Source: a virus. Taken from it: a stretch of DNA of 28,835 nucleotides. Both the position numbers and the translations under genes were made by a program. The notes below the pieces were generated by a model. The model had not been told where the DNA came from. It ran no database searches and saw only the letters and a program-made list of their open reading frames with translations. Every line of letters starts with the position of its first letter. The first letter of the stretch is position 1. The stretch lies in IMG/VR virus record IMGVR_UViG_3300033552_000047, positions 1-28,835 of that record. One strand, 5' to 3'. Of the stretch, positions 3,044 through 22,357 are shown piece after piece.

Positions 3044-3742
3044 TTAATTTAAAAGGAATTTTTTTAGATTTTCCCCTAAAACTGACTTATTTTTTATTTC
3101 ACTCTCCATAAATGGAACAGATTCTTTTTTATTTGTGAACATATAAGAACCAGGTGTACTTGGATTAGTAACGATATCCCAACAGATTAATTCAAAATCA
3201 TCCTCAACTATTAGGGTACCATTTTGTTCTTTTAACGAACCAACACCCCTTGAAGAAACACCAACTCTAATACCTCTTCTTAAAAGATTTGCAATATTAT
3301 CACCCTCACAAGAAATAATTCCTTGATTAACAAAACCAGGTGACATAATAATTTCCATCTCACCAACTAAAGTTTGACCTTCAAACCATATTTTTTTTAT
3401 TTCGTGTGAAACTCTACTTGAATTAATAATTGAAGAGTCAGGATGTTCGGCTTCACCAATAGCTAATCTTTGTTGGATTAACTCATTGTATTTATCAGCT
3501 TCACGCATTAAAATTGATTTAGGGTAGATACGGCCATTTTTATTTAAAACATCGTATTTCTGAAGTATCACAAATAAAACTAAGGGTTCAACCATAACTG
3601 ATTTACCTAACCCTTCAGAAATTTTATTCATTTCTGTCATAAACAGTTTATTTCTCTCGTCTTTTGGTTCGATATAACCACAACCATTTTCAATAATAAG
3701 ACCAGTACCGCTATGACCAGGTTTAACAATCTGTAATTTCAT
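3044..3742 (-). CDS. gp21: Prohead maturation serine protease, gp21-like
   Basis: Cleaves scaffold and capsid proteins during head maturation. In the 232-residue product the expected catalytic elements of the T4 gp21 family are visible: His100 in GEAEHP, Ser163/Ser164 in GVSSRG, and Asp189 in the ICWDIVTNPSTPGS segment that follows the active-site strand. A conserved N-terminal NKNGRIYP motif at 67-74 is also typical of phage prohead proteases. The gene sits directly upstream of the scaffold gene, with its own promoter motif (3756-3765) and a terminator before that. The length is close to T4 gp21 (about 212). Which of the two adjacent serines is the nucleophile cannot be decided from sequence alone. 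Confidence 0.88.
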   Translation of the reverse strand: MKLQIVKPGHSGTGLIIENGCGYIEPKDERNKLFMTEMNKISEGLGKSVMVEPLVLFVILQKYDVLNKNGRIYPKSILMREADKYNELIQQRLAIGEAEHPDSSIINSSRVSHEIKKIWFEGQTLVGEMEIIMSPGFVNQGIISCEGDNIANLLRRGIRVGVSSRGVGSLKEQNGTLIVEDDFELICWDIVTNPSTPGSYMFTNKKESVPFMESEIKNKSVLGENLKKFLLN

Positions 3743-5977: not shown

Positions 5978-8035
5978 TTACATTTTTAATTTTGAATCAA
6001 TTTCATTTATCAGCATTTCGATTGTTTTACCGTTCTTATTTGACTTTAGATCTAAATTTTCAGTCACTATATTCTTTTTTGATGGATTTAAACTATCAAT
6101 TAATTTAGACATATAAATATCTTTATATTTTTTATTTCGTTGCTTTAAAGCTTGTTCAGCTATAAATTCTTTGGTTTCAAGTCTTTTTGAGTAGTTTTCT
6201 AATATTAATGGATTATTAAATAATAAAGATTCTTCCGTTTTCTCAGCTTCCGATGAATCGGCATCATCACCACCTTCATCATCTAACGCTGAGAAATCAA
6301 CATCATCCATACCTTCAGTTTCGGCATCAATATCATCAGCTTCCATATCTGGATCACCTTCTTCAGCTCCTTCTTCAAAATCTAAATTATCTCCACTAAA
6401 TCCACCACCGAATCCACCGCCACCACCAGAACCGCCATCTTCATCACCACCTTCAGCGTCATCACCACCACCTTTTTTAGCAGCTTCCATATCACCGTAA
6501 AGTTTATCCACCTTATCAAACATACCAGTATGTTTAATAACCTTAGAGGTATTTTCCATTTCAGCCGAAGCAGCTTTTTCCATACGTTGTTCTAGAAGAT
6601 CTTGTCTAATATCTTCATCAGACCAATTGAATATTTCTTTTGAAGCTCTAGTTCTAGACATTGTTTTAAATCCATCCCCAGCATCAGAAACAATATCTTT
6701 AAATAAAGTAACTTTACTTTGAGTTTGCTCTATTTCCAACATTTTAGCTTGAGATGATGGATTATTTAAAGATAAGGTAAAGTTATCTAAATCATCTGTA
6801 AATCCTAACATATGTAAATGGATAATAGCAATCCTATTTAATTCTTGGATCATTGATTGTTGAACTCTATTAATCGTTCTTGAAAATCTAATATCCATTA
6901 AAGCTAAATTCTTACCATCACCAGTCGCTTCGTCAAAACCTAAAAAAGATTTTGGTACTCTTAAACCAGTACATAATTTTTTCTGTAAGTATTCTAAATC
7001 ACCAATTTGATCTAAATTAGAAGCACCAGGTAAAGTATCAATTGGGTTTGGAGCATTCTCATCCCTAACTGGGATAAAATAATCTTCAGTATTACTCATC
7101 TGATTATATCTAACATCTATTTGACCAGTTTGCGGATCAATTAATTGGGTTCTTTTAAATTTATTCGCAATGTTATTCACATACGCCTCAACATCTTCAT
7201 CATCAATATTACCAACATAAATTTTATAAACTCTTCTCTCTGGCGCTCTAGTAACTCTATAAACTAACATAGCATCTTCAGCCATTAAAAGTTGTTTCCA
7301 AATTCGTCTACATTTTTCTAGTAATGAAGTTCCGTACGGTAATTTTCTATCATCACCTAAAATTCTAAAATGAGCAATTTGCCAAGATTGAAAAACAATA
7401 TCTTTTCCTCTCCAGTTAAATTTAGTTACGTTAGCTTTATCAGTAATCCGTAATGAATCTATAAAATCCATTTCTTTACGTTCTATTTCGTAGTTTGGGA
7501 GTTGTTTCCCAGCTATAACCCCCTCATTTTCATCAATATTTAAAAATAGAAAGTTATCACCGTATTTACAAACATTTCTAACCCACATTGGTAAGTTAGT
7601 ATGGACTTTTAAGTTATTATAGAATAATTCTTCTAAAACGCCTTTAATCCTACTACTGTTTGAATGTATATTTAGAATTTCACCTTTAGGGTTTGGTGTA
7701 GTACTTTCTTCCATAAAAATATCTAATGCCGCGGCAATCTCAGGGAAGAATTCCATATTTTCAAAATCAGAGTAAGACCCGATTCGAGTCATCTCATAAT
7801 GCATAGTTTGTTGATAGGTTTCACCTTCAACTCTATTCCACATATTTTTTAAATGTTTCCCTTGTAGAGCTTCTAATTTTTTAGTATTAAATTCTTCTTT
7901 AGAGGTAGTTTTTAATAATTCTTTCTTACCAACATTAAATTTTTGATTTGTTGGTGGTGGGATTACTGAGTTACGAGTTAAGACTTGACCTAACTTTTGA
8001 AAAATTGTAATATTTTTATTATCTTTATTATCCAT
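5978..8035 (-). CDS. gp20: Portal vertex protein, gp20-like
   Basis: Dodecameric portal at the head vertex through which DNA is packaged and to which the tail is joined. T4-family portal signatures are plain: RAPERRVYKIYVGNI at 263-277, NTEDYFIPVR at 315-324, IDTLPGASNLDQIGD at 332-346, and the LRVPKSFLGF segment at 358-367. The core ends near residue 520. An extension of about 165 residues follows: a Gly/Asp/Glu-rich low-complexity stretch (521-600, including a run of glycines around 535-545) and a helical, basic tail (605-685). T4 gp20 is 524 residues, so this extension is unusual. The gene follows the terminase and one small gene, and a strong terminator follows it. Confidence 0.95.
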   Translation of the reverse strand: MDNKDNKNITIFQKLGQVLTRNSVIPPPTNQKFNVGKKELLKTTSKEEFNTKKLEALQGKHLKNMWNRVEGETYQQTMHYEMTRIGSYSDFENMEFFPEIAAALDIFMEESTTPNPKGEILNIHSNSSRIKGVLEELFYNNLKVHTNLPMWVRNVCKYGDNFLFLNIDENEGVIAGKQLPNYEIERKEMDFIDSLRITDKANVTKFNWRGKDIVFQSWQIAHFRILGDDRKLPYGTSLLEKCRRIWKQLLMAEDAMLVYRVTRAPERRVYKIYVGNIDDEDVEAYVNNIANKFKRTQLIDPQTGQIDVRYNQMSNTEDYFIPVRDENAPNPIDTLPGASNLDQIGDLEYLQKKLCTGLRVPKSFLGFDEATGDGKNLALMDIRFSRTINRVQQSMIQELNRIAIIHLHMLGFTDDLDNFTLSLNNPSSQAKMLEIEQTQSKVTLFKDIVSDAGDGFKTMSRTRASKEIFNWSDEDIRQDLLEQRMEKAASAEMENTSKVIKHTGMFDKVDKLYGDMEAAKKGGGDDAEGGDEDGGSGGGGGFGGGFSGDNLDFEEGAEEGDPDMEADDIDAETEGMDDVDFSALDDEGGDDADSSEAEKTEESLLFNNPLILENYSKRLETKEFIAEQALKQRNKKYKDIYMSKLIDSLNPSKKNIVTENLDLKSNKNGKTIEMLINEIDSKLKM

Positions 8036-8335: not shown

Positions 8336-10111
8336 TTATCGCATTCCACTAAATAACCATGAATATTGGCCAGTAGGATCTTGCATATTTTTACTTACTA
8401 TTGCTGAAAAAACTGGTTTCTTTTTAACCACTCCATTCTTATCTTTAAAATCGCCACCAGTTAAATCGTGTGCGGTTGGAGCCACCCAAGAATTTAAGAT
8501 AGCTTTAGTTGTATTCGTTAATTTTTTAAGTTTTTTGAAGGATGATTCCAATATCCATAAACCAATACCTAACGACATTAAACAGTCATCATGTTTCCCA
8601 TCTTGATGGTCAGGTCTACCATTATTTTTATAAATAAAAGTTCTCATTTCTTTAACAACTCTACGAGATCTAATTTTAATTCCGTTTGTTCTAACCATCA
8701 TTTCTAAATGACTAATTAAATTCAATCTAACACCATTAACATTAAATCCAGGTATTCTATTTTCACTGAAAACATTATTATTTTTCATTGATTTTAATGT
8801 TCTAGGATTTATCTCATCGTAATGAAGGTTAGGATACTTCAATTCAACCAATTTAAGCACCGTAGAGGCACCAACGTTAATATTATCTACTACGACATAG
8901 GCATTATATTTTAAGCCGTATTTATTGATTAAATTACCAAATATATCTGGTGGGATTTTACCTTGATATTCGGCCACTTGTTCCATCGTTGTAAAATCAA
9001 TTATTTGGAATGTAGAAAAATCGGCACCACTACCACTTGATACGTCAGCCGATAATATGTATTCATGGTCAACTTCTGGTTCGGCCCAAATATAAATTAA
9101 ACCAGAGTTCCCGTCCCAATAATCTCGATCAACAAAAATAGGGTCAATAACATTCTCAGTCTCTTGTTGGATAATATATTCATCAGCAATAACGTTACCC
9201 CCAGAACCTAGAAATGAAACGTCTAGTTCTTGGGCAATTTTCTTTTTATCACCATTCATACCTTTACACATATCCCGATACCAAGTAGAAGTTGGTTTTA
9301 ATCCTTCACGAATTTTCTTATCAAATGATTCATAAGTAAATTCAATTTCAGAAATCATATTACCATGCTTATCACCCCATTCTAAATCTTTATTATACCT
9401 TGGATCTTGATACCATTTCATCTCAATGATGTTGTAATCATTTTCACCCGCTTGTGATTTCTCATAAGTTTCATAATATAATGGGTCTTGACCGTTTGGC
9501 GTTGAAATTAAAATACATCCACCACCAGTACCTAATGAGGTAACGGCCGCAGAATATAAATCAGCTCCATTATCAATAAAGGCAGCCTCATCAAAAACTA
9601 AATAAGTTGGTGTATAACCACGTAGGGCATCTGTAGAAGTAGCAACGGCAATAATAGTACAACCATTAACTAAAACAATTTCGATTTGGGACTCTCTTAA
9701 GAAAATACTTTTTTTCTCTTTTTCTTTTGTTCCGTAGTATTCATCACCCCAAACCCATCTTGGTAATTGTGACACAAAATCTTTAATTCCCTTTGTGAAT
9801 TTTTTAGCTAGGGTTAATTTATTGGCAATAACGACAATCGTTTCTGGGTTCTCTGGATCAGCGAATGCGCATTTCATCGCCATAAAAGCTTGTGTAGTAG
9901 TCGAAATACCAGCTTGTCTAGGTTTCGTAACAAGATTAAATCTATTTTTTAAGTAACAATCAATAATCTCACTTTGTTTATCAAATAACTTAAATGGTAC
10001 GAACCCCTCTTGAGTTTTATCAAAAGTTCGCAAATAGTTTTTAATAGCGTATTTTGGATCTAATAAACACTTTCCATATTCACTGTATATTTCAGCACTA
10101 GTCAACACCAT
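8336..10111 (-). CDS. gp17: Large terminase subunit (packaging ATPase/nuclease), gp17-like
   Basis: Motor that pumps DNA into the prohead and cuts the concatemer. In the 591-residue product the N-terminal ATPase has a Walker A-like KPRQAGISTT at 63-72, Walker B LVFDEA at 171-176 (Asp174, Glu175) and motif III STPNG at 203-207. The C-terminal RNase H-like nuclease shows Asp356 in LSADVSSGSG, Asp409 in VVVDN and Asp508/509 in GKHDDCLMSLG, matching the acidic triad of T4 gp17 (610 residues). The gene starts an operon with its own promoter motif (10121-10130) right after a terminator. No small terminase is recognised in this window; it may be one of the unassigned genes or lie elsewhere. Confidence 0.96.
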   Translation of the reverse strand: MVLTSAEIYSEYGKCLLDPKYAIKNYLRTFDKTQEGFVPFKLFDKQSEIIDCYLKNRFNLVTKPRQAGISTTTQAFMAMKCAFADPENPETIVVIANKLTLAKKFTKGIKDFVSQLPRWVWGDEYYGTKEKEKKSIFLRESQIEIVLVNGCTIIAVATSTDALRGYTPTYLVFDEAAFIDNGADLYSAAVTSLGTGGGCILISTPNGQDPLYYETYEKSQAGENDYNIIEMKWYQDPRYNKDLEWGDKHGNMISEIEFTYESFDKKIREGLKPTSTWYRDMCKGMNGDKKKIAQELDVSFLGSGGNVIADEYIIQQETENVIDPIFVDRDYWDGNSGLIYIWAEPEVDHEYILSADVSSGSGADFSTFQIIDFTTMEQVAEYQGKIPPDIFGNLINKYGLKYNAYVVVDNINVGASTVLKLVELKYPNLHYDEINPRTLKSMKNNNVFSENRIPGFNVNGVRLNLISHLEMMVRTNGIKIRSRRVVKEMRTFIYKNNGRPDHQDGKHDDCLMSLGIGLWILESSFKKLKKLTNTTKAILNSWVAPTAHDLTGGDFKDKNGVVKKKPVFSAIVSKNMQDPTGQYSWLFSGMR

Positions 10112-11662: not shown

Positions 11663-11964
11663 TTTTTATTTTCGTTTAATTTATTAAAATCTTTTTTACT
11701 AATTAGAATTTTTTTACGTCCATCTTTATCGATCGATTCGCTAAAGCTAATTCTACTTTCTTGAACTGTTTTCTTTAAATCTTCATAATCAGCTCCATTT
11801 AATTCTGGATCACAATCTTCATCATTCTCAGTTAATTCAGTTGTCTCATCAACTATTTTAACCATGTCAGAATCTTCTAACTTACCTTTTAAGCTTCCCA
11901 AATCATCTACCGAGGCAAGATATTTCGCCTCTAATACTGATTTTTTAAAAATTTTTTTATTCAT
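11653..11964 (-). CDS. Hypothetical small acidic protein
   Basis: A 103-residue protein with a basic N-terminus, an acidic centre (about 35-70) and a lysine-rich end. No motif is recognised. It overlaps both neighbours (8 bases with the gene upstream, 10 with the gene downstream), a sign of coupled translation within the operon that starts at 14144. Confidence 0.65.
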   Translation of the reverse strand: MNKKIFKKSVLEAKYLASVDDLGSLKGKLEDSDMVKIVDETTELTENDEDCDPELNGADYEDLKKTVQESRISFSESIDKDGRKKILISKKDFNKLNENKKWL

Positions 11965-12355
11965 TTTTTTTATTTATTAATATTAAATCATTTTGATATA
12001 GAATTGAATCAACTTCAGATTTTAAAATTCCGAAACGGAAGAACATTCTTTTATTTGGGTATTCCTCGTATTCTGAAATATTCTCCATTGCTAAAGGTAA
12101 AGCTCCGTCAGTTCCATCCCACATCGCATGAGAATCACTATTCTGTAATACATCAAAAGAATATTGGCTTTTCAACGTACCAGTTAACAATATAAAGTTT
12201 TTCGGTGGTGGGGTTGGTCTACCAGAGGCTGGATACAAATCCCAATAATCACCATCAATACCTTCAGTTTTATCTGAAAATAAAAATTGGTAAATATATT
12301 CACCATCCCAATCTTCACCAACTTCATGTATATAAATTAAATGTAAGTTATCCAT
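11957..12355 (-). CDS. Hypothetical 132-residue protein
   Basis: A protein rich in Asp, Tyr and Trp (for example EDWDGEYIYQFLFSD and GDYWDLYPASGRPTPP near the N-terminus), probably a small beta-rich domain. No family is recognised. Its ATG shares one base with the stop codon of the upstream gene (TAATG), so it should be translated by re-initiation after the frameshifted gene. Its strict spacing suggests it belongs functionally with that gene. Confidence 0.7.
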   Translation of the reverse strand: MDNLHLIYIHEVGEDWDGEYIYQFLFSDKTEGIDGDYWDLYPASGRPTPPPKNFILLTGTLKSQYSFDVLQNSDSHAMWDGTDGALPLAMENISEYEEYPNKRMFFRFGILKSEVDSILYQNDLILINKKNE

Positions 12356-13479
12356 TAAAATAAATATGTATTTAGTTCATATCTAGCACCCATACCATAA
12401 ATTTGAATATGAGCAGCTTTTCTTTGACTAACTAAATTACCCTCTGAATCTTTTTTAAATAAAGTTAAAGTAAATTTATTAGTAACCCCTTCTTTTGGTT
12501 TAGCTGGACCAGTAGAAATCTTATCCCAAACTTCTTCTTTACTATAATTAAAACCTTGGTTTTCTATATTCTCTAAAGCCGCCGTAACAGCGCTTGAATA
12601 AGACCCATGATAAACTTCAGCTTCTGGTTTTTTACCTTTTGGTTTAAAATCCATAGGTATTGAATCATCTTCTTCTAAAGCTTTCGGTGTTGGGTTAGGT
12701 GTTTCAGTTGGTGCGGTTCTCCAAGGTTTTTCTCTTCTAGTAATTCTGCTTGGTTCATCAATACTTGGAGCGATTCTAGTTGGAGCTGGTTCTGTTTCAG
12801 TCATAAAATTTTCTTTACCAACAAAACTATCATTTTTTTTTGCATTACCAAAATCCTCTTTCAAAATATTTTGCATAATATTTGAAAAAGTTTCTTTAAT
12901 TTCATTACCTGGTTGAAATAACATATTTCTTTTAGGGTCAATAAATAACGAATCCATTTCAGATTCATTCATATCTTCACTAAAATCTGGAATGTCTAAA
13001 TCTTCAGATCCTGAATTGTTATCTTCTGGTGGAGTGTTTTCATCTGAAGAAGAATCGTCAGTAGAATCAATGTTACCCGAAGTATTAATTTTATTAATGA
13101 TATCATTTTTATCCTCTTCATCCATTTTTGAAGTATGGGTAGCAGAAATAACAGAATTAATTGCAAATTTTTCTAGTTCTAAGTCTGGGTTACCAGACTC
13201 ATCACTATACTTTCTAAGGCTTTGCCCTAATTTACCACTTAATTGTTGTATGTATTTTTTAGGATCTTCTTCTTCACTGGCTTCAACTCCAGCATCGAAT
13301 GGAGTATCATCGAACGGTTTATCGTCAGTTGTAGGTTCAGCATTAAAGTCGTCACCAAATGAATCTTCATCGTTAGTAGTAGCCTCTGGTGCTACTTCAG
13401 GGGTAACTGGCTGAGCAGCTTCTGGAGCTGGATTACCAACTTTAAGTTTAAATTTAGTCTCTTCTAGACTTTTTTTTTT
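12355..13479 (-). CDS. Downstream part of a frame-split virion-type gene (-1 frame)
   Basis: Open in one frame from the A10 run (13470-13479) to the stop at 12355; the only conventional start inside is ATG at 13125, which would leave about 340 bases of protein-like sequence untranslated. The upstream part reads SLEETKFKLKVGNPAPEAA and later KKYIQQLSGKLGQSLRKY and LELEKFAINSVISATHTSKM, in the same frame as the residues after 13125. The C-terminus (about 85 residues, from YHGSYSSAVTAAL to YELNTYLF) looks like a compact folded domain after a long acidic and proline-rich linker. Joined to the gene at 13464-14144 by a -1 shift, it gives a 596-residue protein. A virion role is inferred from context and from my recollection of similar continuous proteins in marine T4-like phages; that recollection is not verified here. 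Confidence 0.7.
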   Translation of the reverse strand, partial: KKKSLEETKFKLKVGNPAPEAAQPVTPEVAPEATTNDEDSFGDDFNAEPTTDDKPFDDTPFDAGVEASEEEDPKKYIQQLSGKLGQSLRKYSDESGNPDLELEKFAINSVISATHTSKMDEEDKNDIINKINTSGNIDSTDDSSSDENTPPEDNNSGSEDLDIPDFSEDMNESEMDSLFIDPKRNMLFQPGNEIKETFSNIMQNILKEDFGNAKKNDSFVGKENFMTETEPAPTRIAPSIDEPSRITRREKPWRTAPTETPNPTPKALEEDDSIPMDFKPKGKKPEAEVYHGSYSSAVTAALENIENQGFNYSKEEVWDKISTGPAKPKEGVTNKFTLTLFKKDSEGNLVSQRKAAHIQIYGMGARYELNTYLF

Positions 13480-14144
13480 AAATCTTGTTGTAAAATTTTA
13501 TCTAATTTATTAAAAGATTCTAAAACTTTATCAGCATAACCTTCCATAGTATAATCTGGAGTTTCGTCTAAATCCATTTCTAGTTCATCACTTGAATTGT
13601 CTTGAAATTCACCAGTAATCATTCTATCTACGGCTAAATCACTTTCACTCATTTCATCATTGTGTAAATAATCAATATCATCTCCACCTAACTCTGGATT
13701 ATATCCGTATTCAACACCTCTACCAGCTTGATCGTAATCTTCAGCATTAGCGGAATACATATCATCTTCATATAAATCAACATCATTTTGAAATATATTT
13801 TCAACTTCACCACCGTAAGTTTCATTCATCTCAATCAAACGTAAGTTTAATTGTTTAGTTGCTTTCGAAAAACTTTCGTATACAACATCCATCTTATTAG
13901 CCAATCCACCAATATAATTAAAATCAGAATATTTTAACCCTTCTTTAATTACGGCTTTCTTGATAAAATAATTACTATTTTCTTTTACAATAGCGTACGC
14001 GTTTCCATCAGAACCTTTTTTAACCAATTCAAAATTGTGTTGAACTTTTGGTTTAACAGTTTCTGTTATCCCCATCAGAGCTTTTTGTCTGTTGGTTACA
14101 TCTACACCTTTCAATGTATTTGGGTTTATAATATTGTTTTTCAT
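13464..14144 (-). CDS. Upstream part of the frame-split virion-type gene
   Basis: A 226-residue product if translation stops at TAG (13464-13466). Residues about 30-95 form a mixed alpha/beta stretch (FELVKKGSDGNAYAIVKE, then IGGLANKMDVVYESFSKA); residues 110-195 are an acidic, low-complexity region. The frame ends right after a run of ten A's coding for Lys-Lys-Lys-Val. A -1 slip on that run continues into the long open frame below it. The gene starts an operon: promoter motif at 14165-14174 and a terminator before it. Function is unknown; acidic linkers like those of the portal and scaffold suggest a head- or virion-associated protein. Confidence 0.75.
   Translation of the reverse strand: MKNNIINPNTLKGVDVTNRQKALMGITETVKPKVQHNFELVKKGSDGNAYAIVKENSNYFIKKAVIKEGLKYSDFNYIGGLANKMDVVYESFSKATKQLNLRLIEMNETYGGEVENIFQNDVDLYEDDMYSANAEDYDQAGRGVEYGYNPELGGDDIDYLHNDEMSESDLAVDRMITGEFQDNSSDELEMDLDETPDYTMEGYADKVLESFNKLDKILQQDLKKKV
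13470..13479 (-). other. A10 slippery run, probable -1 frameshift or slippage site
   Basis: On the minus strand ten consecutive A's stand four bases before the TAG of the upstream frame. Reading one base twice moves the ribosome into a frame that is open for 374 codons. A weak five-pair hairpin (AGTCT with AGACT) directly follows the run. Transcriptional slippage, ribosomal slippage or a lost A in sequencing would all give this picture. Confidence 0.65.
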
Positions 14145-14190: not shown

Positions 14191-14209
14191 AAACCCCTGA
14201 GTGGGGTTT
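14191..14209 (-). terminator. Rho-independent terminator of the thyA operon
   Basis: A perfect seven-pair stem (AAACCCC with GGGGTTT) and five-base loop, followed on the minus strand by a run of eight T's. It lies just past the stop codon at 14218. Confidence 0.85.
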
Positions 14210-15174: not shown

Positions 15175-16488
15175 TTAATTGCTTAACCCAGCTTTAATTG
15201 TTGGGTGTGAAACGTAATTTTCAATTTGGAAGTCGCTAATTTCCATTCCTTTTATAATAGCACCAAAATTATCCCTTAACACATTTTCTGGATTCCAAAA
15301 TTCTGAATTAATTCGTAATGTTGGAAGCTTATAAGGTTCTCTACTTCTTTTGGGTGTTTTTTCATAATAATTATCATCAAAATTAGGTTCGATCTCATAA
15401 TTTTTTTCCATACCAGTTTCATAATTATTAGAAAGCCACATATCGTACCTTTCTTTATAAGTATAGTCTCTTCCAATTTGTTCTCTAGCAGCATCTAAAT
15501 GATTTAAATATAAATGGGTATCACCAAAATTACCAATCAATTCATCTGGTACCATATTAACCTCATTGGCTATTATAGATAATAATAAACCATATGAAGC
15601 GATATTGAACGGGACGCCTAAGAAAGTATCAGCACTTCGTTGATTCCACAATAAAGATATTGCTCTTTTAGGGATATTATGACAATCTAACCAATAATGA
15701 ATTATCTTATCAGTAAATGGTGAAATATTACCAAAATCACCTTGGAATAACCCATTTTTATCTGCAACAGTCCCAGAATATTGCTCTTTAGTAAGTAAGT
15801 CTCTACGTTCTTTCCAAGATAATTCTCTAGTATAACATTGAAAATCCGTATGACATGGTGGCAACACTGCCTCATCAACCTCAGCTGGGTTCCAAGCGGT
15901 AACTTTAAGTCGTCTTGAGTCTGGGTTAGTTTTCAAATCATTAATAAGATTTTGTATTTGATCAATAACTTTAACGTCATTAATTTTGAACGAGTCCTTG
16001 AATTCTCTATCATAGTCATCATAAATGAATTTATCCCAACGTCTCCACTGTTTTCCATAGATAGGCCCTAAATCTCCCCATTTTTCAGCAAATTCACCAT
16101 CAGTTTGTGTTTTATCAATAAACTCACCCATGGTTAACATGCTTAATGAATTATCTTCATTTACGCGCATCCATTCATTCCACTCTGAACTATTTGTCGA
16201 ACATTTAGAAGTATAATTTTTATAAGCGTCACCATCCCAAATGTGACAGTTGTTATCTACAAGAAATTTAATATTTGTCTCACCTCTTAGAAACCATAAT
16301 AATTCAACGGCGATTAACCTAAATGGAATTTTTTTTGTTGTTAACAATGGAAACCCATCTGACATTTTATGTCTAATTGTTCTACCAAATACAGATAGTG
16401 TCCCAGTACCAGTTCTATCACCTTTTTTCGCTCCGTTATCAAGAATATCTTGAAGTAAGTCTTTGTAATCTTTATCTAATTTATTCAT
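15175..16488 (-). CDS. thyA: Thymidylate synthase ThyA with large insertions
   Basis: Converts dUMP to dTMP using methylene-tetrahydrofolate, supplying thymidine nucleotides for phage replication. Core ThyA motifs are intact: GDRTGTGT at 23-30, FPLLTTKK at 46-53, RRLKVTAWNP at 192-201, catalytic Cys212 in LPPCHTDFQCY, NQRSADTFLGVPFNIASY at 282-299, GDTHLYLNH at 322-330 and the C-terminal HPTIKAGLSN. At 437 residues it is far longer than the 264-residue E. coli enzyme; the extra sequence lies mainly at about 80-135, 221-270 (between the catalytic strand and NQRS) and 335-390. These look like surface insertions, as the motifs on each side align without loss. Its start shares a base with the stop of the small ORF before it (TAATG). 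Confidence 0.97.
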   Translation of the reverse strand: MNKLDKDYKDLLQDILDNGAKKGDRTGTGTLSVFGRTIRHKMSDGFPLLTTKKIPFRLIAVELLWFLRGETNIKFLVDNNCHIWDGDAYKNYTSKCSTNSSEWNEWMRVNEDNSLSMLTMGEFIDKTQTDGEFAEKWGDLGPIYGKQWRRWDKFIYDDYDREFKDSFKINDVKVIDQIQNLINDLKTNPDSRRLKVTAWNPAEVDEAVLPPCHTDFQCYTRELSWKERRDLLTKEQYSGTVADKNGLFQGDFGNISPFTDKIIHYWLDCHNIPKRAISLLWNQRSADTFLGVPFNIASYGLLLSIIANEVNMVPDELIGNFGDTHLYLNHLDAAREQIGRDYTYKERYDMWLSNNYETGMEKNYEIEPNFDDNYYEKTPKRSREPYKLPTLRINSEFWNPENVLRDNFGAIIKGMEISDFQIENYVSHPTIKAGLSN

Positions 16489-18128: not shown

Positions 18129-20675
18129 ATGAGTTTAGAAACTAGTAAAGAAATTAAAGACATTATGTACCTAGCCACCGTTGAGGCTGAAATACATAAT
18201 CATAAGAGATTAAAGGTCGAACATATAGCTATGGCGATCATTAGTCAAGATATTAATATAGCGACAATGACAATGTTTATTCATGGGGTTGATTTGGACT
18301 ATCTTTATGATGAACTAACTGGATTAATTGTTGGTGATTTACAGCCTAATTACCCGATCGGAGGTAAGAAAGAGTTATTACCAACTAAAGAAACTAAAAA
18401 TGTTCTACTAAAATCTGAAATGGAAGCAATGTTTTTTAATTCTAAGAGAATAACAACCAGGCATTTACTATTAGGATTGCTTTCAGTTAATAGTGAAGTC
18501 AAAAATATTTTTAATAAGTGTGGTATAGATGTTGTATTTATAAAAGAATACTTTACATTAAATAATGACGCTGAGATTCTAAATGATTACAATAAAATAA
18601 ATTTAAAATACATAAATATGAGTTTAAATAAAGAAGAGGATTCTAGCGAAAATGCGAGACCGATAATTGAGCCTAGAGTTAGGAATAGAAATGTTAGTAA
18701 AACACCAATACTTGATGAATTCTGTAGAGATGTAACACAAATGGGTACTGATGGGTTATTACAACCAGCGTACGGCCGAGAGAAAGAGGTTCAAAGAATG
18801 GTTCAAATCCTTTGTAGAAAAAATAAACGTAACCCAATATTAGTTGGTCACGCGGGTGTTGGAAAAAGTGTTATTGTTGATGGATTAGCAATAATGATTG
18901 CAAATGGTGTAGCTCCAAAACCACTACTTGATAAGAAAATATACTCCTTAGAAATAGCTAGTCTTATTGCTGGGACTAAATATAGAGGTCAGTTTGAAGA
19001 ACGTATGAAAGGGATTCTAGGTGAATTAAAACAGAACCCTAATATAATAATTTTTATAGATGAAATCCACACTATGGTTGGTGCTGGTAGTACTTCAGGC
19101 TCTTTAGATGTTTCAAATATTTTAAAACCAGCTTTAGCTAGAGGGGAAATGCAATTAATTGGCGCGACTACTTTTGATGAATATAGAGAAAATATTGAAA
19201 AAGATGGTGCTTTAGCTAGAAGATTACAAAAAGTAACAATTGTTGAACCAAATTTAGCTGAAACAAAAGTTATTTTAATGAATATCAAAGAAATTTACGA
19301 AGAATATCACAATGTTAATTACACTGAAGAAGTTATTGATGCTTGTGTTAATTTATCTGATCGCTATATTCAAGATCGAGCTATGCCAGATAAAGCGATT
19401 GACATTTTAGATGAATGTGGTTCTCTAGCGAAATTAAGCGCAGCAAGTAAGTCACCTAAAGATATTCTTAAATTAGAAACCGCAATCGAAGCTTTAAGAA
19501 CAAACGAATTAAATGAAATTGAAACTGAAAAACTAACTGCGATTAGCATGCAAGATTTTGAAAAAGCATCTAAAGTTAGGGACCTTGAAAAAAAGATTTT
19601 AATCAAAATTGAAAAACTACAAAAAGAGGTTGATAATAAAATCAAGAATTTTAAAGTAGTTATCGATATGGATATTGTTAATTCAGTAGTATCTACCATG
19701 ACTATGGTACCAGTTGAAAAATTATCAACTAATGATAATAAAAATTTGTTTAATATGAACGAACAAATTAAAGACAAAGTAATCGGGCAAGACGAAGCTG
19801 TTGATAAAATATGTAAAGCGATTATTAGAAGTAAAGTCGGTATTAAAAACCCGAACAAACCTCTTAGTTTCATGTTGCTGGGTCAATCTGGTGTTGGTAA
19901 AACACAATTAACTAAAGAAATTGCTATGCAGATATTCGGTAATAAAGAGTCTTTAATTAGAGTTGATATGAGTGAATATATGGAAAAATTTAATATGTCA
20001 ACTTTAGTTGGTGCACCTCCAGGGTATATTGGGTATGGTGAAGGTGGGAAATTAACTGAAGCTGTTAGACAGAAGCCATATTCAGTAGTATTATTTGACG
20101 AGATTGAAAAAGCTCACCCAGACGTATTTAACTTAATGTTACAAATTTTAGATGAGGGTCATATCACTGATGGTAACGGTAGGAAAATTAATTTTAAAAA
20201 TACTTTAATTGTTATGACCTCAAATATTGGGGTTAAAGAATTATCAGTTTCTGGTAGTGGTTTAGGTTTCCAAACAACACCTAGTCACAATAATGATAGA
20301 GATCAAGAGATAATTAAAAAAGCTTTAAAAGCTAAATTTGCCCCAGAATTTCTTAATAGAATTGGTAGTACGATTGTATTTAATAAATTAACTTTAGACA
20401 ACATTAAGAAAATTGTAGCTAATGAATTAGTTTTCCTTGAAAAAAGAGTTAAAGAATTAGGATTTACTTTACAAGTCAAACCAAATTTAATTGAATATTT
20501 AGCTGAAATAGGTTTTGATCCAGAATACGGAGCTAGACCATTAGGAAGAGCTATTGAGACCACTATAGAGGACGCTGTAGCTGAAGAAATCATTAAAGGG
20601 TCACTTAGTGAAGGTGGTACAATTATAATGGATTATTCGAAGGATAAAAAAGAAGTGGTCGTAAATCTAGTTTAA
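18129..20675 (+). CDS. clpC: ClpC-type AAA+ unfoldase
   Basis: ATP-driven protein unfoldase, 848 residues. N-terminal Clp-N repeat region (1-145); first AAA+ module with Walker A GHAGVGKS (240-247), pore-loop KYRG (284-287) and Walker B FIDE (309-312); a short middle region with a UVR-like DFEKASKVRDLEKKI (476-490), as in ClpC rather than the long coiled coil of ClpB; second AAA+ module with VIGQDEAV (551-558), Walker A GQSGVGKT (585-592), pore loop GYIGY (632-636), Walker B LFDE (655-658) and C-terminal ARPLGRAIE (802-810). GLGFQT at 711-716 holds the LGF tripeptide at the place where ClpA/ClpC dock on ClpP, which ClpB lacks. All catalytic motifs are intact. It is alone on the plus strand, so it may be regulated apart from the structural genes. 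A complete ClpC is unusual in a T4-like phage. Confidence 0.95.
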   Translation: MSLETSKEIKDIMYLATVEAEIHNHKRLKVEHIAMAIISQDINIATMTMFIHGVDLDYLYDELTGLIVGDLQPNYPIGGKKELLPTKETKNVLLKSEMEAMFFNSKRITTRHLLLGLLSVNSEVKNIFNKCGIDVVFIKEYFTLNNDAEILNDYNKINLKYINMSLNKEEDSSENARPIIEPRVRNRNVSKTPILDEFCRDVTQMGTDGLLQPAYGREKEVQRMVQILCRKNKRNPILVGHAGVGKSVIVDGLAIMIANGVAPKPLLDKKIYSLEIASLIAGTKYRGQFEERMKGILGELKQNPNIIIFIDEIHTMVGAGSTSGSLDVSNILKPALARGEMQLIGATTFDEYRENIEKDGALARRLQKVTIVEPNLAETKVILMNIKEIYEEYHNVNYTEEVIDACVNLSDRYIQDRAMPDKAIDILDECGSLAKLSAASKSPKDILKLETAIEALRTNELNEIETEKLTAISMQDFEKASKVRDLEKKILIKIEKLQKEVDNKIKNFKVVIDMDIVNSVVSTMTMVPVEKLSTNDNKNLFNMNEQIKDKVIGQDEAVDKICKAIIRSKVGIKNPNKPLSFMLLGQSGVGKTQLTKEIAMQIFGNKESLIRVDMSEYMEKFNMSTLVGAPPGYIGYGEGGKLTEAVRQKPYSVVLFDEIEKAHPDVFNLMLQILDEGHITDGNGRKINFKNTLIVMTSNIGVKELSVSGSGLGFQTTPSHNNDRDQEIIKKALKAKFAPEFLNRIGSTIVFNKLTLDNIKKIVANELVFLEKRVKELGFTLQVKPNLIEYLAEIGFDPEYGARPLGRAIETTIEDAVAEEIIKGSLSEGGTIIMDYSKDKKEVVVNLV

Positions 20676-20986: not shown

Positions 20987-22357
20987 TTACTCTAAATCAA
21001 CGTTAGGAATTAACTCCTTTAATTTTTCAATATATAATGGGGTAAATAAATTTTTAGAAAGAGATAACCTAAGTAATGATCCACCATTGGATGGGTCCAA
21101 GTATTTAATAGATTCTGGTAGAACAGTTAATCGATTACCAACAAGATTTATTAAACGCAATTTTTTTAATTTACTAATATCCTCTGGAATAAAACTAATA
21201 TTGTTTTTAGGTAGAGATAAAACCTCTAAATTAGATACATTTAAAACATCATTAGGAAATTCGTTTAATTGAGTTTCAATCAACACAACCATTTTTAATT
21301 GATCGAAACGTTTTAAAGAAAGATCTGGAGTTAATTTCATGTTTCGAATAGTAATTGTTTTAGCATCAATATCATGCATATCAATAAGAATTTTTCCATA
21401 ACCTAATGAAATAGCTCTCTTAGCATATTTATTTCCTTTAATAAATCGACTTAAACTTAATAGTTCATTATAGAAAAAATTATTAAGTCCAATACTGATA
21501 TTAAGAAAATTTTTAATGAAATTTTGTTCATCAAACCGATTGCTATTATTATTAATTTGATCAGTCTCAAAATGTAATTGAAACATGTTATAATTATTTT
21601 TATTGATAACTACATACAGTTTTGAGTGGGCCCCATCAGGTCTTTTATAATCCTTAGTATAACGGGTAAATTGAGTATTACCACTTTGGGTCGTGCACCA
21701 ACTAGCAAATTCATTTAAAACTTCATTCGCTCTCCTTGAAAATGGGATATAAACCATAAAAGTTTTATCTTCAAAAACAATTTCAGCTTCTTTACCTACC
21801 GAATAGGTTTGTAATTTTAAAAAAAACTCTCCGTAATTTTTTGGTATGTATGGAAAAATAGCGTCGTATACTGTATGAATTGAATGGTATTGATTAATAT
21901 CTGTAGCATCTTTCAAATCAATAATAGACATATTAGATTTGGACTGTTCTCTAAAGATTTTAGTTTTTTTTAATTGATCAAAAATGGTTAAATATTTAAA
22001 AACTTGGGGTAAATCCTCATTCAAAAAAGTTAAAGCACCTTTTGTATTAAATAAATTTCTTTCTAAATTATAAACAGTTAAATCATTAGTAAAATGAACT
22101 CTAAGGATTTTATTTAAACAGTTCATAATCCATTGTGAATAAACTTTTTTAATCGTGGGATCGGCCGAAACTAATAAATCAAGAACGGGTCTTGAAATAA
22201 TAATATCATTGGTTAGTTTATTAATGATAAAATATACCTCATCTGAATCACCACCCGTAATATTGGTAAAAATGTCCAAATCGGAATAGTCTAAAGTTGA
22301 ATCAACAATTTTAAATTTATTTATTAGGTAATCGATCCTTTTATTATTTATTTGCAT
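20987..22357 (-). CDS. Leucine-rich-repeat protein with WCT-type N-terminal domain
   Basis: 456 residues. The C-terminal third (about 352-436) holds three or four leucine-rich repeats of about 23 residues, for example LEVLSLPKNNISFIPEDISK and LRLINLVGNRLTVLPESIKY, a protein-binding fold. The centre has FASWCTTQSG (217-226), YVVINK (248-253) and FQLHFETDQ (259-267), a pattern I have met in phage proteins of unknown function. The N-terminal 140 residues are helical. No transmembrane segment or signal peptide. A role in binding a host or phage protein is plausible. A TATATTTG motif stands just upstream. Next to the ClpC-like gene but on the other strand, so a link between the two is speculative. 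Confidence 0.8.
   Translation of the reverse strand: MQINNKRIDYLINKFKIVDSTLDYSDLDIFTNITGGDSDEVYFIINKLTNDIIISRPVLDLLVSADPTIKKVYSQWIMNCLNKILRVHFTNDLTVYNLERNLFNTKGALTFLNEDLPQVFKYLTIFDQLKKTKIFREQSKSNMSIIDLKDATDINQYHSIHTVYDAIFPYIPKNYGEFFLKLQTYSVGKEAEIVFEDKTFMVYIPFSRRANEVLNEFASWCTTQSGNTQFTRYTKDYKRPDGAHSKLYVVINKNNYNMFQLHFETDQINNNSNRFDEQNFIKNFLNISIGLNNFFYNELLSLSRFIKGNKYAKRAISLGYGKILIDMHDIDAKTITIRNMKLTPDLSLKRFDQLKMVVLIETQLNEFPNDVLNVSNLEVLSLPKNNISFIPEDISKLKKLRLINLVGNRLTVLPESIKYLDPSNGGSLLRLSLSKNLFTPLYIEKLKELIPNVDLE

Follow-up and report, generated by a model that had tools for sequence, protein, structure and literature searches.

Within a virus record of 28.8 kb (IMGVR_UViG_3300033552_000047; all 28,835 nt were analysed and are called the window here), a minus-strand gene meets a stop codon just past ten consecutive A's, and a -1 change of frame at these A's would carry it far beyond that stop. 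Is this a gene broken by error or mutation, a pair of genes, or a single gene recoded into two proteins, and which machine would then slip, the RNA polymerase or the ribosome? The features at issue are these:

13464-14144, minus strand: 0-frame open reading frame (ORF) of the short form, 226 aa, C-terminal ...DLKKKV* (from the ORF listing and translation)
13470-13479, minus strand: A10 run, the putative slippage site, 0-frame TTA AAA AAA AAA GTC
13464-13466, minus strand: TAG stop of the short form, with one sense codon (GTC) between run and stop
12355-13479, minus strand: -1-frame extension, 374 codons from the run, ending in TAA; joined to the N part it gives a 596-aa long form
13080-13325 (approximate), minus strand: conserved extension domain, from DDKPFDDTPFDAGV... 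to ...NDIINKINTSG, predicted to form three helices and lying mostly upstream of the ATG at 13125
12358-12621, minus strand: C-terminal module of the long form, EVYHGSYSSAV... to ...ARYELNTYLF, with a weak match to a hypothetical protein of phage Melnitz (E 1e-5, 35%)
13363-13452, minus strand: weak window counterpart of the hairpin region found in relatives (z about -1.5; matched in stability by 7% of synonymous shuffles)

The poly-A junction and its relatives

The minus strand around the junction reads GAT TTA AAA AAA AAA GTC TAG (window sequence, down to 13464), with the slippery heptamer A_AAA_AAA in phase inside the run. An earlier note, made from the window alone, had described an A10 run with a -1 frame change; this was borne out with every coordinate correct, and recomputing the 374-codon open frame and the 596-aa fused product gave the same values. 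The first ATG of the -1 frame, at 13125, lies 118 codons into the open stretch 12358-13479. These 118 codons, to which the note had ascribed protein character, include the stretch where the second half is best conserved and carry KPFDDxPFDAGV, DPKKYIQQLSGKLGQSLRKY and DLELEKFAINSVISATHTSxM.

Searches of DNA and of bacterial genomes with each half gave no match, and protein searches with each half gave almost none. Relatives were first reached through synteny, as relatives of the terminase TerL showed both halves adjoining, upstream of TerL. Profile scans of IMG/VR with each half yielded 340 loci having both halves, which group into 119 clusters when the similarity limit is 90% and into 77 when it is 70%; some of these loci repeat one contig, so that distinct sequences number 138. 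Since relatives were reached via the N half and via the C half, the pattern described below is not the product of one search. The window forms a long branch in the tree. In loci of Immutovirus, Microcystis phage Mel-JY01 and Melnitz, neither a detectable homolog of the shared domains nor an A-run of at least 9 was found.

The second half lies in the -1 frame across a run of A9-A12 in 108 of the 119 clusters (A9 in 8, A10 in 92, A11 in 7 and A12 in 1), and in all 108 of these shifted clusters the run falls where the two frames briefly overlap; other sense-strand runs of at least 9 A number only 53 in 814 kb of related loci. Ten of the remaining 11 clusters hold one continuous ORF, and one is shifted in the +1 direction with an A9 run (L041:2975-2983). 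The latter is the only shifted locus of its direction and was seen in a single contig, so its run length may be wrong or the locus may be a genuine variant. Both outcomes of reading the run are constrained. In 108/108 clusters the short frame stops no more than 8 codons past the run, compared with 34% at random positions of the same domain, and within 2 codons in 74% compared with 13%; the third frame lacks early-stop enrichment of this kind (12% vs a background of 48% within 2 codons; 97% vs 85% within 8). The -1 frame after the run is conserved, with the motifs (E)TKYKLKL, KPFDDEPFDAGV, DPKKYIQQLSGKLGQSLRKY and LEKFAINSVISATHTSEM, nearly all of which precede the first ATG in the window. We conclude from this comparison of sequences that the gene is recoded and that both reading outcomes are conserved.

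These observations bear on three simpler accounts. A missed A, which the earlier note had kept open beside two forms of programmed recoding, belongs with the wider proposal that the reads or their assembly are wrong, or that a decaying gene has recently acquired a frameshift mutation. Homopolymers are prone to errors and single loci could be wrong, the +1 locus with its A9 run among them; an identical -1 arrangement in 108 clusters, a constant run length in 13 clusters with non-identical members and an intact conserved domain past the run nevertheless leave this account with a negligible probability, and it was programmed recoding that stood. DNA-level phase variation, in which mutations of run length would switch the long form on and off, draws on the classical part that homopolymer runs play in phase variation (PMC3711429). 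It is made very improbable by the run length itself, which did not vary within any 90% cluster, including the 13 run-bearing clusters (run of at least 9) that have at least two non-identical sequences; no on/off neighbours were seen, and A10 is kept over great divergence. The shared arrangement and the constant run length thus argue against error, pseudogene and phase variation alike. That the two halves are separate genes, the second with a start of its own, would fit the 256-aa ORF that begins with the ATG at 13125 and the record of a 200-aa second half as a protein of another phage (A0A8S5S061). We consider this highly unlikely as well: the invariant domain precedes the ATG at 13125, the first ATG lies at least 90 codons past the run in 35/84 clusters, K(Y/F)KLK is conserved after the run without a conserved start, and 10 clusters are naturally one continuous ORF. 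Relatives made of two ORFs, each with its own start, which the note had named as evidence against a fusion, were not found; in many relatives the conserved domain starts directly past the run and ahead of any ATG. Standard gene calling splits the gene, one half being the 200-aa record, and the long product is therefore missed.

Slippage of the RNA polymerase or of the ribosome

The reading that we favour, and regard as probable, is that one gene yields two proteins, one short and one long, through programmed transcriptional slippage at the A-run. On the T10 template, the RNA polymerase would occasionally insert one extra A. Ribosomes on an mRNA with the extra A would continue into the -1 frame and make the 596-aa protein, and an mRNA lacking it would give the 226-aa protein, ending one codon past the run. 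The ratio of the two would be set by the run; they would share the N-terminal domain, to which the long form would add the conserved three-helix domain, acidic linkers and variable C-terminal modules. We infer the transcriptional step, the gain of one A as its usual event, and the product ratio.

A slippery heptamer for ribosomes requires only 7-8 nt. The run is used in all three codon phases with its length held at 9 or more (phase 3: A10 82, A11 3, A12 1; phase 1: A9 8, A10 6, A11 3; phase 2: A10 4, A11 1; shifted clusters), so that length, not phase, is conserved. Codon usage around the run was analysed in the first 84 shifted clusters, of which 67 are in phase 3. AAG makes up 21.5% of lysine codons and never occurs at the run's first lysine codon in these 67 clusters (log10 P -7), and the codon preceding the run ends in A in 67/67 (log10 P -22); both P values are too small as the clusters are related, yet the direction is clear. 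The frame change is nearly always that of one inserted A, and a single-nucleotide insertion in an A/T run leads to the -1 frame. In A/T runs, bacterial RNA polymerase slips mainly by adding single nucleotides (PMC5574713). Such slippage is efficient from 9 A/T (PMC5009743), and ribosome sliding in E. coli is robust at A11 with little at A9 or A10 (PMC4363877), thresholds that were measured in E. coli and Thermus, the phage host being probably Bacteroidota-like. Bacteroidota are described in PMC6847099 as lacking Shine-Dalgarno (SD) sequences; similarly, in the first 84 shifted clusters, SD-like motifs precede 3.4% of starts compared with 10% of random positions, and such a motif lies upstream of the run in only 16/84.

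Four continuous clusters retain the run (A10 in L049, L353 and L188; A11 in L009). In the three of these that were examined, a slip either way runs into a stop after at most 6 codons, so slippage in such relatives would yield the short form. One of the four (L009) is nested among shifted relatives in the tree, on which the fused-with-run state needs about three changes, although long branches make the details of the tree unsure. Together, the length and phase of the run, the absence of AAG, the direction of the shift and the fused-with-run relatives favour transcriptional slippage among the forms of recoding that the earlier note had offered.

A second element lies further downstream. RNA structure is localised at the codons that follow K(Y/F)KLK (mean z -2.6, compared with about -0.3 elsewhere, from synonymous-codon shuffles). 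In a larger set, the mean z of this region was -2.79 in 107 shifted clusters, compared with -0.47 in 4 fused clusters with the run and +0.42 in 5 fused clusters without it, in which the hairpin is absent. Among 23 aligned hairpins, two-sided changes occur in 10/15 pairs, with a covariation score of 0.227 vs 0.119 (reached in 0/500 shuffles). RNAalifold derived no consensus from the hairpin alignment, which is gappy; pair counts on the named structure did support one. The hairpin starts 22-50 nt past the run (median 36), or 90-190 nt past it in 17 clusters with an insertion, and is always beyond the short-form stop. The insertion in these 17 clusters (e.g., L122, L145 and L158), of the form (S)TGLFxDEE, lies between the run and KYKLK and moves the hairpin to a distance of at least 90 nt from the run; these clusters have a second, weaker structured region at +10 to +65. 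With its weak counterpart, the window is a poor representative of the element. We rejected a role of the hairpin as a DNA element: a conserved U-G pair counters this and argues for RNA.

The hairpin belongs to the case for the main rival, programmed -1 ribosomal frameshifting on A_AAA_AAA within the run, aided by the hairpin. The heptamer is present inside every run, a strong hairpin follows it in most shifted relatives (z -2.79, compared with +0.42 where the gene is fused and lacks the run), and tailed phages commonly use -1 frameshifting in their tail and capsid genes (PMC5009743). However, the hairpin starts 22-50 or 90-190 nt from the run, compared with the usual 5-9 nt, and the windows adjoining the run have little structure (z -0.2 to -0.5). 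Among the relatives, a stimulatory structure at a spacing of about 5-9 nt was not found in general; a hairpin directly at the run occurs in some loci, including the window (GTCT-AGAAG-AGAC), and is not general. The most frequent phase does not offer the preferred A_AAA_AAG, and ribosomal slippage would tolerate AAG synonyms and shorter runs, none of which occurs. We therefore hold ribosomal frameshifting to be unlikely, though a serious contender on account of the heptamer in every run.

If the polymerase slips, as we favour, the hairpin has no clear role in that step, being transcribed after the run. Its association with shifted genes could point to translation, and it may act through collided ribosomes or shield the untranslated stretch after short-form termination. 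Our tentative suggestion, put forward with some doubt, is that the A9-A12 slip site and the distant, sequence-variable, covarying hairpin form a two-part recoding cassette of an undescribed kind. In open-licence papers, we found no account of this recoding system.

Two probable products and their genomic setting

The short form consists of an N-terminal domain of ~130 aa (conserved in 20-43 relatives), an acidic linker and a C-terminal helix ending in KKKV. In the extension, helices are predicted at residues 73-95, 100-114 and 121-134 of the translation of window:12910-13479. Beyond them, second halves differ widely in C-terminal modules and in length (~250-930 aa; L007, L008, L047 and others), as though a constant core received exchangeable modules, and a module of the type EVYHGSYSSAV...ARYELNTYLF also terminates several relatives. 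Searches of PHROGs, Pfam, PDB sequences and Rfam gave no usable family for either half, and matches to DUF7078 and EF-hand were dismissed as below the cut-off. Structure models of both parts were of low confidence: AlphaFold2 gave a small three-stranded sheet with helices for the N part (pLDDT 69), and the C part was modelled as three helices with disordered acidic linkers (pLDDT 64). Fold searches with these low-confidence models matched two uncharacterised viral proteins with the N part (E 1.7e-5 and 4.6e-4) and one with the C part (E 2.8e-4); a PDB fold search with the N part gave no match.

The gene stands upstream of a T4-like head cluster, with these neighbours:

14191-14209, minus strand: intrinsic-terminator-like hairpin just upstream of the recoded gene
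11957-12355, minus strand: next gene, 132 aa, a neighbour conserved in relatives; its ATG overlaps the long-form TAA (TAATG)
8336-10111: TerL, downstream of the recoded gene
5978-8035: portal protein gp20, head cluster
3044-3742: prohead protease gp21, head cluster
3-1466: capsid protein gp23 (gp23-like), head cluster

With the terminator-like hairpin directly upstream, the recoded gene probably starts a new transcript, and the TAATG overlap suggests that translation of the 132-aa gene may be coupled to the long frame. The position of the gene argues for a probable role of the protein in the head or in packaging, and both proteins probably function. The earlier note's 'virion-like' is weakly supported: the gene opens a T4-like head and packaging cluster, and neither a family nor a PDB or informative fold match speaks for it.

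Other genes deserve mention. Thymidylate synthase (15175-16488, 437 aa) is matched by Pfam in two stretches and, being much longer than the model of 266 positions, seems to contain inserted sequence. An 848-aa ClpA/ClpB-like AAA+ protein (18129-20675) lies on the strand opposite to the head genes, and a 456-aa protein (20987-22357) has leucine-rich repeats near its C terminus. Among relatives, TerL of L054:10001-12430 is split by an intein (Pfam Intein_splicing, E 6e-11), and TerL matches are similarly stretched in L057-L059.

Comparison with known recoding systems

To our knowledge, only few genes, most of them cellular, use programmed transcriptional slippage; a large group of uncultured T4-like phages now appears to have conserved it deeply. 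Their natural variants (three phases, A9-A12, in-frame with run, with and without hairpin) form a ready series with which to tell slippage in transcription from slippage of the ribosome, and are also suited to learning the effect of the distal hairpin.

The dnaX gene of Thermus thermophilus and Chlorobi likewise has a conserved run of 9-10 A/T and a short and a long product, and in Chlorobi 10 A's join two ORFs (PMC3711429, PMC5009743); dnaX is an unrelated cellular gene, whereas ours is a phage gene, most members of which have a hairpin past the run. In tssM1 of Citrobacter rodentium and tssM3 of Yersinia, slippage takes place on an A11 run; an A-run lies near the end of the short frame, as it does here, and both products are needed (PMC4256274). 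Yersinia TssM3 has the long form in frame, with slippage giving the short one (PMC4256274), and we propose the same for two of the fused relatives that retain the run (L049 and L009). Slippage in tssM was reported in few bacteria, compared with 108 phage clusters here.

The tail assembly chaperones G/GT, to which the earlier note had likened the gene, are useful as an analogy and not beyond it. They too are encoded by a phage gene and made in a fixed ratio of short to long form, as proposed here, but the pair precedes the tape measure, whereas the recoded gene is found ahead of those for TerL, portal, protease and major capsid and differs in size and slip site. T4 is a noted exception among phages with G/GT frameshifting (PMC5009743). 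The capsid extensions of T7/T3 (10B), A2 and PSA resemble the window gene as minor extended forms of a phage structural protein; they are ribosomal and affect the major capsid gene, which the window gene is not. Another case in a T4-like phage is the methyltransferase of Campylobacter phage CPt10, which has a poly-A frameshift for which slippage was suggested, as here (PMC2853527); that is a single accessory gene, absent from CP220 and with conservation not shown, whereas the gene described here is conserved.
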